Positions 9,646 through 23,328 of a stretch of 64,000 bases of DNA are shown piece by piece. Both the position numbers and the translations under genes were made by a program. The first letter of the stretch is position 1. Each line of letters opens with the position of its first letter. The DNA comes from Amycolatopsis alba DSM 44262 (lineage in GTDB: Bacteria > Actinomycetota > Actinomycetes > Mycobacteriales > Pseudonocardiaceae). The stretch is from NCBI RefSeq assembly GCF_000384215.1, contig NZ_KB913032.1, positions 6,533,605 to 6,597,604 on the forward strand, read 5' to 3'. The notes under the pieces were generated by a model. The model was not told the DNA's origin. It saw nothing but the letters and a program-made list of their open reading frames with translations, and made no database searches.

Positions 9646-10713
9646 GTGACCGAGCCCGGCTACGCCGACGGCGCGCAGCAGCCCGGAACGCCGGCGCGGG
9701 ACGCCCAGTTGCTGGAGCGGACCGTGTTCGAGGTCAAGCGGATCATCGTCGGCCAGGACAGGCTGGTCGAGCGGATGCTGGTCGGCCTGCTGGCCAGGGG
9801 GCACCTCCTCCTCGAAGGCGTCCCCGGCGTCGCGAAGACCCTCGCCGTCGAGACCTTCGCGCGCGTGGTGGGCGGCTCGTTCTCGCGCGTGCAGTTCACC
9901 CCGGACCTGGTCCCCGCCGACATCCTCGGTACCCGGATCTACCGCCAGGGCGCCGAGCGGTTCGACGTCGAACTCGGCCCGGTGGTGGCGAACTTCGTCC
10001 TCGCCGACGAGATCAACCGCGCGCCGGCGAAGGTGCAGTCGGCGATGCTCGAGGTGATGGCCGAACGGCACGTGTCGATCGGCGGCCAGACCTTCCCGAT
10101 GCCCGACCCGTTCCTCGTGCTCGCCACGCAGAACCCGATCGAGAACGAGGGCGTGTACCCGCTGCCCGAGGCGCAGCGCGACCGGTTCCTGTTCAAGATC
10201 GTCGTCGAGTACCCGACCGCCGAGGAAGAGCGGGAGATCATCTACCGGATGGGGGTCACCCCACCCACCCCGCAAGAGGTGCTGAGCCCGTCCGAGCTGG
10301 TCCGGCTGCAGAACGTCGCTTCGCAGGTCTTCGTGCACCACGCGCTCGTCGACTACGTCGTCCGCCTCGTGCTCACCACCCGTACGCCGAACGACCACGG
10401 CCTCGCCGACGTCGCGGGCTGGGTGTCCTACGGCGCCTCGCCGCGTGCCAGCCTCGGCATCATCGCCGCGGCCCGCGCGCTGGCGCTGGTCCGCGGCCGG
10501 GACTACGTGCTGCCGCAGGACGTCGTCGACGTCGTCCCCGACGTGCTGCGGCACCGGCTCGTGCTGTCCTACGACGCGCTGGCCGACGGCGTCCCCATCG
10601 ACCACATCATCACGCGGGTGCTGCAGACCGTGCCGTTGCCGCAGGTCTCGGCCCGTCCGCAGGGCGGCGCCGGGCAGGGCGGCCCGGTCCCGGCCGGTGC
10701 ACCGGTCAGGTAG
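9646..10713 (+). CDS. moxR1: MoxR-family AAA+ ATPase
   Basis: 355 residues. Walker A is GVPGVAKT (58-65), Walker B is within FVLADEINRAPAKVQ, sensor 1 is LATQNPIENEGVYPLPEAQ, and the C-terminal lid closes the AAA_3 fold. MoxR ATPases act as chaperones that load cofactors or assemble complexes with VWA-domain partners encoded next to them, exactly as here (DUF58 then VWA). GTG at 9646 is preceded by ACAGGAGGCAC. The order NlpC/P60-moxR-DUF58-VWA matches Rv1478-Rv1481. An inverted CACAGCCGT/ACGGCTGTG pair (9534-9583) lies upstream and may be an operator or a weak hairpin. Confidence 0.93.
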   Translation: MTEPGYADGAQQPGTPARDAQLLERTVFEVKRIIVGQDRLVERMLVGLLARGHLLLEGVPGVAKTLAVETFARVVGGSFSRVQFTPDLVPADILGTRIYRQGAERFDVELGPVVANFVLADEINRAPAKVQSAMLEVMAERHVSIGGQTFPMPDPFLVLATQNPIENEGVYPLPEAQRDRFLFKIVVEYPTAEEEREIIYRMGVTPPTPQEVLSPSELVRLQNVASQVFVHHALVDYVVRLVLTTRTPNDHGLADVAGWVSYGASPRASLGIIAAARALALVRGRDYVLPQDVVDVVPDVLRHRLVLSYDALADGVPIDHIITRVLQTVPLPQVSARPQGGAGQGGPVPAGAPVR

Positions 10714-10723
10714 GGAAGCGAGC

Positions 10724-11668
10724 GTGAAGAACGAGAAGGGCGAACGTCCTTCCTGGGCACCGCCGGTGCTCCGCGGGGAGCGGATGGAGGCGGGCCTGCG
10801 CACGCTCGAACTCGACGTGCGCCGCCGTCTCGACGGTCTGCTGCAGGGCAACCATCTCGGCCTTGTGCCGGGACCGGGTTCGGAACCGGGGGAGGCCCGG
10901 CCGTACCAGCCCGGTGACGACGTCCGCCGGATGGACTGGGCGGTCACCGCGCGGACGACGAGCCCGCACATCCGGGAGACCGTCGCCGACCGCGAGCTGG
11001 AGACATGGCTGGTGGCGGACGTGTCCGCGAGTCTCGACTTCGGCACGGCGCTGTGCGAGAAACGCGACCTGGTCGTCTGCGCGACCGCCGCGGTCGCGCA
11101 TCTGACCGGCGGCGGTGGCAACCGGATCGGCGCGCTCGTCTCCAACGGGGCGGGCAGCATCACGCGGATCCCCGCGCGCGGCGGGCTCCCGCACGCGCGG
11201 GGGCTGGTCCGCAAGCTCGCCGAGACCCCGCGCGCCGAGGAAGGCGTCCGCGGGGATCTCGCCGCGGCACTGGAGAAACTGCGCCGTCCGCCCCGCCGTC
11301 GCGGGCTCGCCGTCGTGATCTCCGATTTCCTCGGTGACACCGAATGGCAGCGCCCGTTGCGCGCGCTCGGCGGGCACCACGACCTCATCGCCATCGAAGT
11401 CCTCGACCCGCGCGACATCGACCTGCCCGACGTGGGCACCGTCGTGCTGGCCGACCCGGAGACAGGGAAACAGCGCGAAGTGCACGCTTCGGCCTTGCTG
11501 CGCAAGGAATTCGGCGCCGCGGCGCACGCTCACCGGCAGGAGGTCGCGGCCGCGCTGCGCCGGGCCGGTGCCGCGCATCTGGTGCTGCGCACCGACTCGG
11601 ACTGGATCGCGGACATGGTCCGGTTCGTGGTGGCCCGCAAACGCCGCTGGTCCGGTGGTGTCGCGTGA
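10724..11668 (+). CDS. DUF58 domain protein (MoxR partner)
   Basis: 314 residues. The conserved DUF58 core RPYQPGDDVRRMDWAVTAR is at about residues 58-76, followed by a VWA-like half with LVADVSASLDFG and VVISDFLGD. Members act with MoxR ATPases and VWA proteins; the biochemical role is unproven. GTG at 10724 lies 10 nt after the moxR stop with GGGAAGCGA as ribosome-binding site, and the end overlaps the next start in GTGA, so the three genes form one operon. It corresponds in position to Rv1480. Confidence 0.88.
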   Translation: MKNEKGERPSWAPPVLRGERMEAGLRTLELDVRRRLDGLLQGNHLGLVPGPGSEPGEARPYQPGDDVRRMDWAVTARTTSPHIRETVADRELETWLVADVSASLDFGTALCEKRDLVVCATAAVAHLTGGGGNRIGALVSNGAGSITRIPARGGLPHARGLVRKLAETPRAEEGVRGDLAAALEKLRRPPRRRGLAVVISDFLGDTEWQRPLRALGGHHDLIAIEVLDPRDIDLPDVGTVVLADPETGKQREVHASALLRKEFGAAAHAHRQEVAAALRRAGAAHLVLRTDSDWIADMVRFVVARKRRWSGGVA

Positions 11669-18871: not shown

Positions 18872-19813
18872 TCACCCGTGAAGGGCACGATAGGCCGACG
18901 CGGCTCCGGGATGCAGCGGCACCTGGCCGGTGCCGATCAGCGTCCGGACGTCGAGGAACTGGGTCCCGACGGCGGGCGCCGGGACGAGGTCGGCGGCGTG
19001 CCCGGCCAGCACTCGCGCGACGGCGGCCGCGGCGTCGTCGGGCAGCGAAGGCGCCGCGAGCAGCAGGTTCGCGACACCGATCGTCCGTAGTTCTCCGACC
19101 CCTTGATAGGCCTGCGCCGGGACGTGGACCTGGTCGTACACCGGGCCGTAGCCCGCGCGCAGGGCGGGAAGGTGGGCGTCGAGTGGGAGGAGCGTTATCG
19201 GGGTAGTGCGATTCAGGTCACTGAGCGCGGGCGTGGGGATCCCGCCGGACCAGAACAGCGCGTCGACCTCGTGGGCCACGAGCGCGTTGATCGCTTCCCC
19301 GAGCAGGAGGTTCTTCGCGTGCACCGGGATCTTGGCGCGCGCGAACAGGCGGGTGCTGAACACGGCGACGCCGGACCCGTTCGCGCCCATCGCCACCGGC
19401 CGCCCGGCCAGATCGGAAAGCGACCGCACGCCACCGTCCGCGCGGACCACGAGCTGGTGGTAGTTCTCGTAGACGCGGCCGATGGCGGAGAACGCGATCG
19501 GCACGGAGAACGGTTCCGCTCCGGCGAGGGCGGACTCGGCGACGTCGCCGAGGACGAGCCCGAGATCGGCCCGGCCGTCCCGCAGCCGTCGCAGGTTCTC
19601 GACACTGGCCTCGGTCGCGACGGCCGTCGCGCGCAGGCGCGGTTCCGCCCGGTTCAGCTGCTGGGCCAGCAGTTCGGCGAAGGCGAGATAGAAGCCGCCG
19701 CTCTCGCCCGCCGCGATGACGACCTCGCGTTCGGGGCCCTGGTAGCCCGCCGTCGAGCAGCCCGCGAGCGTGGCGAGCCCGGCGAGGAGCGCGGTGCGCC
19801 TGGTGACGGTCAT
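18872..19813 (-). CDS. TAXI-family TRAP-type solute-binding lipoprotein
   Basis: 313 residues. The N-terminus TRRTALLAGLATLAGC combines a twin-arginine-like pair with a lipobox (LAGC), so it is probably a lipoprotein anchored outside the membrane. The body matches TAXI binding proteins: AAGESGGFYLAFAELLAQQL, the DLGLVLGDVAE segment, AMGANGSGVAVFSTRLF and DALFWSGGIPTPAL. TAXI proteins normally feed TRAP transporters with fused DctQM subunits; none is encoded nearby. Instead it overlaps the sensor kinase gene by 4 nt and ends a kgtP-RR-HK operon, which suggests it serves as a ligand-binding co-sensor. Reported TAXI ligands include C5 dicarboxylates (from memory). Confidence 0.88.
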   Translation of the reverse strand: MTVTRRTALLAGLATLAGCSTAGYQGPEREVVIAAGESGGFYLAFAELLAQQLNRAEPRLRATAVATEASVENLRRLRDGRADLGLVLGDVAESALAGAEPFSVPIAFSAIGRVYENYHQLVVRADGGVRSLSDLAGRPVAMGANGSGVAVFSTRLFARAKIPVHAKNLLLGEAINALVAHEVDALFWSGGIPTPALSDLNRTTPITLLPLDAHLPALRAGYGPVYDQVHVPAQAYQGVGELRTIGVANLLLAAPSLPDDAAAAVARVLAGHAADLVPAPAVGTQFLDVRTLIGTGQVPLHPGAASAYRALHG

Positions 19814-21210
19814 GGTGTTCTCCCGGCGAGGGGGAGTTCGACGCGGACTTCGAGGCCGTGCGGTGCCGCCTCGCGCAGTTCGAGCGTCCCGCCCCTGGCG
19901 AGCACGTGCTGGCTCGCGATCGCGAGCCCGAGGCCGGTCCCGCGCGGCGCGCCGTCGCCACCGGCCCGCCAGAACCGTTCGGTCGCCCGTTCACGGTCCT
20001 CAGTGGACAGTCCGGGACCGTTGTCCGACACGAAGACCGTGGCCGTCGCGTCGCCGGTTTCGTAGCCGGTGGTGATGGCGGCGCCCCGGCCGGCGTAGTG
20101 GACCGCGTTGTCCAGCAGGACATCCAGCACCTGGGCCAGTTCGCTTTCCGAGCACCGCACGGGCACCGGCTCGTCGTGGCAGTCCGCCGCCGCGAGGCCG
20201 ACTCCCGCGTCTTCGGCAGACGGGCGCCACGCGTCGACCCGTTCGGCCAGCACCGCCGGCAGATCGCAGGGTTCGTCACCGGATTCGCCCGCGGCGAGCC
20301 GGGTCGCGGCGCTTTCGGCGAGCGCCAGCGCGAGCAGCCCGTCGAGCAGGGACTCCAGGCGTTCGACCTCCGCGACGGTCGCCCGGTAGGCCCGCTGGCC
20401 GTCGCCGTCGACCTGCGCGGCCAGCGAATCCACGCGCAACCGCAAGGCCGCCATCGGATTCCGCAACTGGTGCGAGGCGTCGGCGACGAGCCGCCGCTGC
20501 TGCTCGGACGCTTCGACGACGGCGTCGGACATCCGGTTGAACGACGTCGCGAGCGAACGCAGTTCCCGCGGCCCGGCCCGGTCGGGGACCTGGGCGCGAT
20601 ACCCCTCGGTCACCGCCTGCACGCCGGTCTCCAGTTCGTGCAGCGGCCGCACCATCCAGCGGGCCAGGAGCACCGCGAGCAGGACGAACACGACCGCGAC
20701 GAGGATCGCACCCGCGACGATCGCGGACCAGCGGGTGGTGATGTCGGCCGCCGCAGTGGTCACCGAAGCGCGGAGCACGACCACCCCGGCCACCCGCGTC
20801 CCGGTGCCGACCGGACGGGAGAAAGAGACCGGATCCGCGGACCACGGGCTCAGTTGTTCCGGCCCCTTCGCCGGTTGGTTGCGCAGCGCGGACTCGACGA
20901 GAGAACGCACGACGGGCTCCGCGGCCGTCATCCCGCCGGTTTCGACCAGCGGCAGCCCCCGCGCGTCGACCACCACGACGGCTTCGCCGTATAACGACGA
21001 ATACCGCGCCGCGTCGACCGCCAGCGTGGTCGCGTCACCGGCGTCGACGGCCTGCTGGGCGAGGACGACGAACCGGTCGACGTCGGCGTTACGGGCGATG
21101 ACCAGCTGCTGGGTCCGCTGCGCGGCGGTCGACCCGAAGAGCGGGATCGCGAACGCGGCGACCACGGTCAGCGCGAGCGCGACGAGGACGACCAGCAGCC
21201 GGGCGCGCAC
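19810..21210 (-). CDS. Two-component sensor histidine kinase
   Basis: 466 residues. TM1 (about 4-24), an extracytoplasmic domain of about 135 residues, TM2 (163-183), HAMP (184-235), a HisKA domain with the phosphoacceptor His247 in DASHQLRNPMAAL, and an HATPase domain with VLLDNAVHYA (N box), SDNGPGLS (G1) and GTGLGLAI (G2). The H box is of the HPK1/TctE-like kind. It begins 3 nt after the response regulator stop and its ATGA overlaps the TAXI gene, so all are co-translated. The outer domain could contact the TAXI lipoprotein. Confidence 0.93.
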   Translation of the reverse strand: MRARLLVVLVALALTVVAAFAIPLFGSTAAQRTQQLVIARNADVDRFVVLAQQAVDAGDATTLAVDAARYSSLYGEAVVVVDARGLPLVETGGMTAAEPVVRSLVESALRNQPAKGPEQLSPWSADPVSFSRPVGTGTRVAGVVVLRASVTTAAADITTRWSAIVAGAILVAVVFVLLAVLLARWMVRPLHELETGVQAVTEGYRAQVPDRAGPRELRSLATSFNRMSDAVVEASEQQRRLVADASHQLRNPMAALRLRVDSLAAQVDGDGQRAYRATVAEVERLESLLDGLLALALAESAATRLAAGESGDEPCDLPAVLAERVDAWRPSAEDAGVGLAAADCHDEPVPVRCSESELAQVLDVLLDNAVHYAGRGAAITTGYETGDATATVFVSDNGPGLSTEDRERATERFWRAGGDGAPRGTGLGLAIASQHVLARGGTLELREAAPHGLEVRVELPLAGRTP

Positions 21211-21213
21211 CGG

Positions 21214-21876
21214 TCAGTCCCGGCCGAAGCGATAGCCGAATCCCCGGATCGTGGTCAGCAACCCCGGCCGGTCGAGTTTCGCGCGCAGCTGGGTCAGGTG
21301 CACGTCGAGCGAACGGGAGACGGCGAGGTACGCGTCGCCCCAGACCTCGTCCATCAGCTGCTGGCGGCTCACCGCGGTGCCGGGCCGGGCGGCGAGCACC
21401 GCCAGCACGGCGAACTCCTTGGTGGTGAGACCGATGTCGGCCCCGTCGACCAGCACCCGCCGCGCCCCGAGGTCGATCTCGACGTCCTCGACGCGGACGA
21501 CGTCGTCCTGCGGCACGGCCGGGACGGCGGCGCGGCGCACGACCGCGTCCATCCTCGCCAGCAGTTCGGCGAGGCGGACCGGTTTGGTCAGGTAGTCGTC
21601 GGCGCCGAGCCGCAGCCCGCGCACCACGGACCGCTCGTCCCCGCGCGCGGTGAGGACCAGCACCGGCACCAGTGACACCTGCCGCACCTTGCGGAGGACG
21701 TCGAGCCCGTCCATGTCGGGCAGGCCGAGATCCAGCAGGATCACGTCGGCCTCGCGATGCCGGTGCAGCGCGTCGCAGCCCCGGACCGCGTGGGAGACGG
21801 TGTGGCCACGCGCCTGCAGTGTTTCGGCGAGCGCGTCGGCGACGCCGGAGTCGTCTTCGACCAGCAGCAACCGCAT
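21214..21876 (-). CDS. OmpR/PhoB-family response regulator
   Basis: 220 residues. The receiver domain has the acidic pair in LLVEDD, the phosphoacceptor Asp49 in LLDLGLPDMDG, Thr in LTARG and Lys in LTKPVRL; the C-terminal winged helix ends RPGLLTTIRGFGYRFGRD. ATG 21876 is preceded by GGGAAGG at 7 nt. It lies 16 nt after the transporter stop and 3 nt before the kinase. The probable target is the promoter in front of kgtP; a TCCTAA-N7-TTAGGA dyad lies there at 23310-23328. Confidence 0.94.
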   Translation of the reverse strand: MRLLLVEDDSGVADALAETLQARGHTVSHAVRGCDALHRHREADVILLDLGLPDMDGLDVLRKVRQVSLVPVLVLTARGDERSVVRGLRLGADDYLTKPVRLAELLARMDAVVRRAAVPAVPQDDVVRVEDVEIDLGARRVLVDGADIGLTTKEFAVLAVLAARPGTAVSRQQLMDEVWGDAYLAVSRSLDVHLTQLRAKLDRPGLLTTIRGFGYRFGRD

Positions 21877-21892
21877 GACCACACCTTCCCGT

Positions 21893-23242
21893 CTAGCCTT
21901 CGCGAGCCGACACCTGCTCGGCCTTCTTGCTGTCCAGCTCCGAGGTCTTCGAGGTTTCCCGCATTGTGCCGTACACGATGAGCGAGACCAGGACACAGCC
22001 CGCGACGTAGTAGAAGAACACCGATTCGTGGCCCGCTCCCTTGAGCGCCTGCGCGATGAGCTCGGCGGTCCCGCCGAAGATCGCCACGGTGAGCGCGTAG
22101 GGGAGACCGACGCCGATCGCGCGGATCTTCGTCGGGAACAGCTCGGCCTTCACGATCGCGTTGATCGAGGTGTACCCGGTGACGATCACCAGCCCGGACA
22201 GCATCAGCAGGAAGGCGAGCACCGGCTCCTTGGTCCCGCCCATCAGCGTCATGATCGGGACGGTCAGCAGCGTGCCCGCGATCCCGAAGAACATCAGCAG
22301 CGGGCGGCGGCCGATCCGGTCGGACAGCTTCCCGGCGAGCGGCTGCAGGATCGCGGCGACGAGGATCGCGCAGAACAGGATCAGCGTGACCGTCCGGCGC
22401 GGGATGCCCGCGGTGTTCTCCATGAACTTCTGGCTGTAGGTGGCGAAGGTGTAGAAGGACACCGTTCCGCCGAGGGTGAGGCCGACGACCAGCGCGATCT
22501 CCTTGGGGTACTTGGCCAGCGCGCGCAGCGTGCCCTTGTCGCCCGCGTCCTTGCCGGTGCCGGAGGCCTTGGTCTCCTCGAAACTGGCCGACTCGTCCAT
22601 CCCGCGGCGCAGGATCATCACCACGACCGCGGCGAGCGCGCCGACGGCGAACGCGATCCGCCAGCCCCACGAGGTCAGCTGCTGCTCGGTGAGGACGGCC
22701 TGCAGCAGCAGCTGGAGGCCGAGCGCCAGCAGCTGGCCGCCGTACAGCGTCACGTACTGGAAGCTGGAGTAGAAGCCGCGTTTGCCCGGAGTGGCCACTT
22801 CGGACAGATAGGTCGCGGAGGTCGAGTACTCGCCGCCGACCGACAGTCCTTGGATGAGCCTGGCGACCAGCAGCAGGATCGGCGCGGCGATCCCGATACT
22901 GGCGTAGGTCGGCGTCACGGCGATCATCAGCGACCCCGTCGCCATCAACGTGACGGAAAGCACGAGTGCGCTTCGTCGCCCGAAGCGGTCGGCGAACCGG
23001 CCCAGCATCCAGCCGCCGAGTGGTCGCATGAGGAAGCCGACGGCGAACACCGCCGCGGTGCCGAGGAAGGCCGCCGTCGTGTCCTTGGTGGGGAAGAAGG
23101 ACTTGGCGAAGTACGTGGTGAAGGCGGCGTAGGCGTACCAGTCGTACCACTCGACCAGGTTGCCGATGGAGCCGCGCAGCACGTTGCCGACGACTCGCCT
23201 CTCGCTTGCGGGCGGCGACGCTTCACCGATCCGGGTTGTCAT
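21893..23242 (-). CDS. kgtP: Alpha-ketoglutarate permease-like MHS-family symporter
   Basis: 449 residues with 12 predicted helices. It tracks E. coli KgtP closely: GNLVEWYDWYAY in TM1, FLMRPLGGWMLGRFADRFGRR, RLIQGLSVGGEYSTSATYLSE, GFYSSFQYVTLYGGQLLAL and YTSINAIVKAELFP. MHS symporters import carboxylates or betaines with protons; the KgtP-specific resemblance favours 2-oxoglutarate. ATG 23242 follows CAGGAGG. It is the first gene of an operon with a response regulator, kinase and TAXI protein, an arrangement that implies substrate-induced uptake. Confidence 0.88.
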   Translation of the reverse strand: MTTRIGEASPPASERRVVGNVLRGSIGNLVEWYDWYAYAAFTTYFAKSFFPTKDTTAAFLGTAAVFAVGFLMRPLGGWMLGRFADRFGRRSALVLSVTLMATGSLMIAVTPTYASIGIAAPILLLVARLIQGLSVGGEYSTSATYLSEVATPGKRGFYSSFQYVTLYGGQLLALGLQLLLQAVLTEQQLTSWGWRIAFAVGALAAVVVMILRRGMDESASFEETKASGTGKDAGDKGTLRALAKYPKEIALVVGLTLGGTVSFYTFATYSQKFMENTAGIPRRTVTLILFCAILVAAILQPLAGKLSDRIGRRPLLMFFGIAGTLLTVPIMTLMGGTKEPVLAFLLMLSGLVIVTGYTSINAIVKAELFPTKIRAIGVGLPYALTVAIFGGTAELIAQALKGAGHESVFFYYVAGCVLVSLIVYGTMRETSKTSELDSKKAEQVSAREG

Positions 23243-23309
23243 CTTTGACCTCCTGTGTTCCGGCTCACGGTGAACAATCCGTGACGGCCGGGCAAGGTTT
23301 CGGCCCGGT

Positions 23310-23328
23310 TCCTAACATCCGCTTAGGA
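23310..23328. promoter_or_regulatory. Dyad upstream of the kgtP operon
   Basis: TCCTAA (23310-23315) and TTAGGA (23323-23328) are exact inverted repeats with a 7-nt spacer, 68 nt before the kgtP start in the region divergent from fabG1. It may be a response-regulator site. Confidence 0.35.

Follow-up and report, generated by a model that had tools for sequence, protein, structure and literature searches.

The GluR-GluK two-component system of Streptomyces coelicolor, which was reportedly studied together with gluABCD by Li, Jiang and Lu in 2017, is among the described systems closest to the operon dealt with here, a set of four genes of Amycolatopsis alba DSM 44262 (GCF_000384215.1, NZ_KB913032.1) for a KgtP-like symporter, a response regulator, a sensor histidine kinase and a TAXI-family solute-binding lipoprotein, located within a stretch of 64,000 nucleotides (nt; hereafter the window) of the 9.81-Mb genome. 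In S. coelicolor, the OmpR-type regulator GluR and the kinase GluK regulate gluABCD (PMC9739842, available part of the text); the importer there is the ATP-binding cassette (ABC) system GluABCD and the ligand is glutamate, whereas the importer of the window operon is a KgtP-like symporter. In the citrate system BctC-BctDE-BctBA of Bordetella, a solute-binding protein (SBP) activates the sensor kinase that controls the importer gene (PMC5812351), and SBP-assisted two-component sensing has been called general for solute-binding proteins (PMC9602780), both as given in the accessible parts of these papers. MifS-MifR of Pseudomonas aeruginosa controls, acting with RpoN, the KgtP-like 2-oxoglutarate carrier PA5530 (PMC4482717), and KguS-KguR of uropathogenic Escherichia coli controls 2-oxoglutarate utilisation, again according to the text available.

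The window operon resembles BctC-BctE in that a binding protein of a secondary-transporter class is tied to a kinase that would control an importer, contact between the two proteins of the window being putative. BctC is, however, a TctC-type SBP that also serves transport by BctBA, whereas the SBP of the window is of the TAXI type and has no membrane partner of the tripartite ATP-independent periplasmic (TRAP) class in the genome. The TAXI-GltS system of Bordetella pertussis likewise includes a TAXI protein without a TRAP membrane subunit, translationally coupled to its partner gene, but that partner is the carrier GltS, whereas the gene overlapping the window TAXI gene is that of the sensor kinase; the terms kinase and two-component are absent from the available text on TAXI-GltS (PMC12344293), and gltS is not among the four genes of the window operon, the rest of the genome not having been searched for it. 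Two-component control tied to a KgtP-like carrier or, for KguSR, to 2-oxoglutarate utilisation is the feature in common with MifSR and KguSR; a binding protein is not seen in the accessible text on those systems, whereas the window operon includes a TAXI gene, and the window regulator, composed of Response_reg and Trans_reg_C alone, carries no sigma-54 domain and in this respect is not of the RpoN-dependent MifSR type.

The comparisons given below support, on the grounds of gene linkage, the assignment of the TAXI protein to the kinase and not to a TRAP transporter. The operon as a whole is read as a binding-protein-assisted two-component sensor together with its output importer, with a probability of roughly 0.7. 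Kinases assisted by binding proteins are already known; a TAXI protein working with a kinase was not found in the open-access literature searched by titles and the beginnings of abstracts, a scope outside which most subscription papers lie. If the reading is correct, the TAXI family joins the binding proteins that stimulate sensor kinases.

Linkage of TAXI genes with sensor kinase genes

A total of 59 among 60 Amycolatopsis genomes carried a window-type TAXI gene (53-100% identity). Upon inspection of 21 loci of this genus (the window and L008-L027), the regulator, kinase and TAXI genes were found together in all 21, and the symporter gene in 16. In a survey of the family, a TAXI match at E <= 1e-60 was detected in 59 of 120 genomes, covering 24 of the 46 genera, and in the 23 other-genus loci examined (one genome per genus, Amycolatopsis excluded) the regulator-kinase-TAXI set was always present (the kinase gene of L219 being frameshifted), while DctM was found in none of them. 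This recurrence in 21/21 and 23/23 loci indicates a linkage beyond chance, and the sequence-only reading, which had made its proposal depend on conserved linkage with the kinase, holds up on this point. The SBP gene is thus linked to and conserved with the kinase gene in all 44 loci of this type (A-type, the window-type TAXI/kinase module, as distinct from the B-type or gluABCD-linked module described below), while the importer varies; the persistence of TAXI beside the kinase in loci that have lost or exchanged the importer speaks for a signalling role. An 803-residue frame of L219 scoring for both kinase and TAXI was considered as a fusion of the two and rejected, as the kinase similarity ends near residue 340 and the kinase continues in another frame to the usual ATGA overlap; the frameshift near this residue (L219:5540-7951) may be real or an assembly error.

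Proteins such as the window TAXI are named TRAP transporter solute-binding subunit, yet no TRAP membrane subunit is coded in the window genome: no DctQM gene lies alongside, and a search of the whole genome for DctM (PF06808) gave no match at E <= 0.001, all 13 of the 13 first-look candidates having been scored. The lack of a DctQ/DctM gene, claimed from the window by the sequence-only reading, therefore extends to the genome as judged by PF06808, and the TRAP QM gene elsewhere that would have spoken for another partner did not appear.

The neighbourhoods of all 53 TAXI genes above the TIGR02122 cut-off, present in 42 genomes of a sample of 396 Actinomycetota genomes, were then compared (DctM for L095 and L098 being taken from match coordinates). 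Sixteen adjoined a kinase gene of the family to which the window kinase belongs (over 100 bits) and two lay 3-6 kb from one, 29 adjoined DctM, six adjoined neither (four of these at contig ends), and none adjoined both. Three TAXI genes (L042:6743-7924, L083 and L085) have neither DctM nor kinase in the fetched stretch, though they lie away from contig ends, and some Amycolatopsis genomes (L038-L041, L043, L047) also hold an ordinary TAXI-TRAP system with DctM, apart from the kinase-linked TAXI genes.

The outer sensor domain of the kinase is conserved and spans about 135 residues, several of which are invariant among 13 sequences; a profile search for solved relatives gave no credible one, the three matches being at chance level (E 0.12-0.83). 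Its profile, A3, was run against the 396 genomes with at most 10 candidates scored per genome, yielding 37 matches, 18 of them above 100 bits, after which the scores drop to 54 bits. Among the 18 strong matches, 16 adjoin a TAXI gene and two lie 4-7 kb from one; eight of the 18 had been used for building the profile, and of the ten outside the building set, eight adjoin and two are near a TAXI gene. The 19 weaker matches come from genomes without a TAXI gene above the cut-off, except one in G187, which is far from the TAXI gene. In this sample, kinases of the outer-domain subfamily (over 100 bits) occur only near TAXI genes.

Of the 85 rows in a TAXI tree, the 49 kinase-linked ones are set apart by one branch (support 96 in the Shimodaira-Hasegawa-like approximate likelihood ratio test) from 36 others, comprising TRAP-linked rows, two references and a few rows for which no importer was in view; this corresponds to a single change, counted with L042, L052, L083 and L085 left unlabelled. 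The symporter-linked clade A (window, Amycolatopsis, L092 and L087; support 98) is separate from both the gluABCD-linked rows and L090/L091, the latter also with a KgtP-like gene, and monophyly of the B-type is weak (68). The tree omits L045 (two rows), L088, L089, L093, L094, L096 and L097 as fragments or doubtful, and lacks rows for L044, L095 and L098, of which the TAXI genes were missed by phmmer. The kinase tree, which is without L090 and L092 (outside alignment A1) and is limited by long branches, resolved the same principal groups, support for B being 81.

Organization of the operon and its products

The genes, in the order symporter, regulator, kinase and TAXI, are transcribed from the same strand (Table 1), with spacings of 16 nt (symporter/regulator) and 3 nt (regulator/kinase) and with the ATG of the TAXI gene overlapping the kinase stop by 4 nt. 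The layout and the gene families had been described correctly by the sequence-only reading. The TAXI protein scored 192 bits with TIGR02122 against a curated cut-off of 84.35, which places it within the family, and its AlphaFold2 model has a mean predicted local distance difference test score of 91.4. Its N-terminus carries a signal sequence and the lipobox LAGC with Cys19 (by eye), and because of this lipobox-ended signal peptide the protein should be tethered outside the membrane. For the symporter, the identity with E. coli KgtP amounts to 49% (412 residues), compared with about 30% for ProP and for partial ShiA.

Table 1. Positions of the operon features in the window and of the Nramp-family genes at related loci
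Feature	Position	Strand	Family or remark
KgtP-like MHS-family symporter, 449 aa, operon gene 1	21893..23242	-	PF00083/PF07690
OmpR/PhoB-type response regulator, 220 aa, ATG start	21214..21876	-	Pfam Response_reg + Trans_reg_C
Sensor histidine kinase, 466 aa, GTG start	19810..21210	-	HAMP-HisKA-HATPase_c
Kinase outer sensor domain, residues 27-165	20716..21132	-	Position between two membrane helices
TAXI-family solute-binding lipoprotein, 313 aa	18872..19813	-	TIGR02122 + PF16868
Operator-like element CCTAAG-N5-GTTAGGAAC	23308..23327	-	65 nt upstream of symporter ATG
Nramp-family proteins	L212:9330-10649, L216:4033-5598, L219:8055-9410, L209:3665-4921, L189:5081-6370, L021:10158-11450		PF01566, NF037982 (L189, L021)

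The second TAXI-kinase pair and the GluR-GluK-type loci

The TAXI model matched four genes in the window genome, two of them above the Pfam cut-off. The second of these two, at G000:C1:9468539 (locus L005), is convergent with a kinase gene, the tails overlapping by 11 nt; a regulator gene precedes the kinase gene and a complete gluABCD operon begins beyond the regulator, so that both over-cut-off TAXI genes of this genome adjoin a kinase-regulator pair. The arrangement of regulator, kinase and gluABCD matches that of S. coelicolor by gene order, and GluK is on this ground assumed to belong to one family with the B-type kinases, the S. coelicolor sequence being outside the comparison. The window operon differs in that its TAXI gene has the same orientation as the kinase gene and overlaps it, whereas the TAXI gene of the GluK type is convergent with the kinase gene, and in that an MHS symporter takes the place of the neighbouring gluABCD. 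The gluABCD-linked kinase is the best paralogue of the window kinase (36% identity over residues 2-464, 210 bits), followed by one of 96 bits over residues 158-454; among the other 22 kinase matches, one (77.5 bits, residues 18-451) also extends far into the outer part. Since the best match spans residues 2-464, the sensor domain is closely common to both TAXI-linked kinases, and the window kinase is homologous over its full length to a kinase of the GluK type, as compared with the paralogue of the same genome and not with SCO5779.

Among the best 80 of 575 relatives of a Streptomyces-like GluK (identities of 79-94%), the kinase gene has a convergent TAXI gene no more than 300 nt away in all 80 (median 24 nt), and GluA lies beyond the regulator in all 80; these loci are close relatives and represent one lineage, not 80 events. 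Within these best 80, the linkage of an SBP gene to a kinase and its conservation are as described above for the A-type loci. The phylum sample includes two Streptomyces-like genomes (L074, L078) in which 3-6 kb separate the TAXI gene from the kinase gene. If the proposed role is correct, TAXI would be a third component of the GluR-GluK glutamate system.

Exchange of the importer gene

The KgtP-like carrier is the importer most commonly linked to the operon, and a comparison of seven kinase-linked symporters gave identities of 43-52% with KgtP and of 25-31% with ProP or partial ShiA. Ten of the 23 other-genus loci have an adjacent KgtP-like gene and a further two have one within 4 kb, four have an adjacent Nramp-family gene, and seven have neither importer near. 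No locus with both KgtP-like and Nramp-like genes was found among the 28 searched (the 23 loci, L018-L021 and L025), and the five symporter-less Amycolatopsis genomes gave no symporter match at E <= 1e-80 above 42% identity. The Nramp-like gene is a divergent neighbour of the regulator gene in L209 and in the Amycolatopsis locus L021, lies between the regulator and kinase genes in L212 and L216, and follows the TAXI gene in L219; that of L021 starts at 10158, the frame 10107-11450 scoring 750 bits.

The motifs DPGN and MPH form the metal site of MntH. In six aligned Nramp-like sequences (L189, L190, L209, L212, L216 and L219, of which L189 and L190 are close relatives and represent one event), GAGD stands at the position of DPGN of E. 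coli MntH and MAA at that of MPH; for L021 the GAGD part alone was seen. Judging from these motifs, the module-linked Nramp-like proteins are probably not manganese transporters. If the sensor reading is correct, the module would offer a way to identify both what the A-type TAXI proteins bind and what is transported by Nramp-like proteins that currently go by the name of metal transporters.

Binding pocket and ligand

In VcGluP, Tyr45, Gln93 and Glu125 hold the amino group of glutamate, and Tyr45 and Gln93 dominate the affinity (PMC11574862, part of the text available); 2-oxoglutarate caused no thermal shift of this protein. The window TAXI keeps Tyr45 and has Leu93 and Asn125 in place of Gln93 and Glu125, whereas its gluABCD-linked B-type paralogue has Ala93 and Asp125. 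The Leu93/Asn125 pair is found in 22 of 25 A-labelled TAXI rows (21 Amycolatopsis rows including the window, and L092), the exceptions being L087 (Met/Asn) and L090 and L091 (Leu/Ser), and in 21 of the 23 other-genus TAXI proteins, L207 and L210 having His/Asn. Leu/Asn at the amino-group positions suits a ligand without an amino group, and such a ligand is the most likely one for the A-type proteins as far as the pocket residues tell; glutamate was considered and judged less likely, since Gln93 and Glu125 of VcGluP are both replaced. The same pair also occurs in TRAP-linked TAXI proteins of unassigned substrate (for example, L053, L061 and L069), so that the pair alone is no pointer to a keto acid and the deduction is a modest one.

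Specificity for 2-oxoglutarate and 2-hydroxyglutarate has been described for a TAXI-TRAP system of Proteus mirabilis (PMC12344293, available part). Our best guess for the ligand is 2-oxoglutarate or another dicarboxylate close to it, such as 2-hydroxyglutarate or beta-ketoadipate, with 2-oxoglutarate itself at somewhat less than an even chance. The sequence-only reading pointed to 2-oxoglutarate or a relative; 2-oxoglutarate as such is not established, the KgtP-like gene being often replaced by an Nramp-like gene or not adjacent while the pocket is nearly the same.

Beta-ketoadipate is the substrate of PcaT. The alternative that survives best takes the signal to be something other than a C5 dicarboxylate, for example a metal-carboxylate complex or a C4 or C6 acid, as a ligand common to the partner importers; the Leu/Asn pocket accompanies KgtP-like, Nramp-like or no adjacent importer alike, and the KgtP-like PA5530 has PcaT as a close relative (PMC4482717, text seen in part), but the seven tested symporters are closest to KgtP and the MntH metal-site motifs are missing from the Nramp-like partners, and we regard this alternative as considerable though clearly short of even odds.

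Proposed mechanism and its alternatives

Under the reading as a binding-protein-assisted sensor, the TAXI lipoprotein, tethered outside the membrane, would close on a small carboxylate, and the ligand-closed protein would dock on the kinase's short outer domain; the kinase would then phosphorylate the OmpR-type regulator. The regulator would bind the CCTAAG-N5-GTTAGGAAC element and raise transcription of the operon, and the KgtP-like proton symporter would import the same carboxylate that TAXI binds.

Several observations weigh against this reading. GluK of S. coelicolor, the kinase of the sister system, has been reported to bind glutamate directly (PMC9739842, in the part accessible), and TAXI may therefore be dispensable for sensing. 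The window symporter falls short of the cut-offs of the KgtP-subfamily NCBIfam models, scoring 473.6 against 550 bits with PRK10406, its best model, and 417.8 against 443 bits with TIGR00883, and the genome holds elsewhere another KgtP-like gene, the product of which is 59% identical to the window symporter. Neither importer type is adjacent in seven of the 23 other-genus loci and in four of the 21 Amycolatopsis loci, and a shortened form of the operator-like element (at most one mismatch) precedes the symporter gene in four (L202, L203, L204 and L217) of the 12 other-genus loci with a symporter gene within 4 kb. In addition, the DctM-linked TAXI genes of L056 and L058 have a weakly similar kinase gene (40 and 54 bits) within about 2 kb, so that kinase proximity alone is no proof of the loss of transport. 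Of the earlier proposal that TAXI serves as receptor of the kinase while a secondary carrier performs transport, the association of TAXI with the kinase and the predominance of KgtP-like importers were borne out, while the reported glutamate binding by GluK itself counts against the receptor part.

The second KgtP-like gene, at G000:C1:5928929-5930200 (L195:4391-5788), is surrounded by frames resembling a LysR-type regulator, an acyl-CoA dehydrogenase and a CoA-transferase (by eye), and queries with TAXI, kinase and regulator gave no match beside it. The weakly similar kinases of L056 (L056:3619-6617) and L058 (L058:1223-3760) are each accompanied by a regulator frame next to the TRAP-linked TAXI gene, and perhaps represent another TAXI-kinase pairing.

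The binding of glutamate to GluK in vitro (PMC9739842, part seen) and the conservation of the outer domain with its invariant positions would also fit direct binding of the ligand by the kinase, TAXI merely buffering or concentrating ligand at the surface or modulating affinity; all 18 strong matches of the sensor subfamily have, however, a TAXI gene within 7 kb (16 adjacent), which is tighter than expected of a helpful extra, and we hold this alternative to be improbable. Carriers of the major facilitator superfamily (MFS) are not known to be of the elevator type. Slightly less probable still is that TAXI delivers its ligand straight to the KgtP-like symporter as a new SBP-dependent MFS transporter beside a kinase that senses by itself: the KgtP-like and TAXI genes do share an operon and a tie of TAXI to a non-TRAP carrier has precedent in BP0403 with GltS (PMC12344293, in part), but the regulator-kinase-TAXI set is without an adjacent symporter gene in 5/21 Amycolatopsis loci and without one within 4 kb in 11/23 other-genus loci, TAXI is without the kinase in 0/44 loci (loci chosen by TAXI), the ABC importer of the sister system has a binding protein of its own, GluB, and the elevator type is the property to which the available text of the same paper ties SBP dependence.

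An extension of the sensor reading would be that TAXI was recruited once in Actinomycetota as an obligatory ligand receptor of a family of histidine kinases, that the A-type module, its pocket nearly unchanged, drives exchangeable importers (KgtP-like MFS carriers or noncanonical Nramp-fold proteins devoid of the metal-site motifs and importing the same carboxylate), and that GluR-GluK depends on TAXI as an overlooked third component; this proposal as a whole is tentative and rather unlikely.

The operator-like element

An alignment of 14 loci shows a conserved block of about 90 nt before the symporter gene, including loci with a different upstream neighbour. The element core, CCTAAG-N5-GTnAGGAAC, has a single match at one mismatch or less in the genome, that of the window. 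It is exact in all 16 symporter-bearing and in none of the five symporter-less Amycolatopsis loci, and exact also in L092, from another family of the same order, and is absent at up to one mismatch from 148 other loci; the pattern was fixed after 14 of the 16 loci and L092 had been seen, L011 and L026 being unseen beforehand. Among the 59 window-type TAXI loci of the genus, the element lies 3.43-4.01 kb upstream of the TAXI gene in 51 (48 exact, three with one mismatch) and precedes the symporter gene on another contig in G045 and G050, the remaining six being G040 and the five symporter-less genomes; no element was found in G013, which has no TAXI match. A backward control pattern matches in 25 of the 60 genomes, and isolated one-mismatch matches are thus weak evidence. 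The symporter-less G011 and G055, which are close relatives, have such a match 49 nt upstream of the Nramp-like ATG, and L021 has a variant of the element at the same distance upstream of its Nramp-like ATG. Outside the genus, the shortened element precedes the Nramp-like gene in one of four loci (L219), and is present in L220 before a gene without identification.

The element and the repeats before gluA are putative binding sites of the respective regulators. These repeats, which differ from the element and are spaced 11 bp, are GCTCAGATTCC and CCTCAGATGTA; they form an 11-bp direct repeat (by eye) in the Streptomyces-like gluA promoters of L075 and its relatives, and represent a candidate GluR site. 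In G055 (L190:4700-6952), two copies of the element stand about 1.9 kb apart with a DprA-like frame between them (by eye), as if DNA had been inserted into the promoter region.

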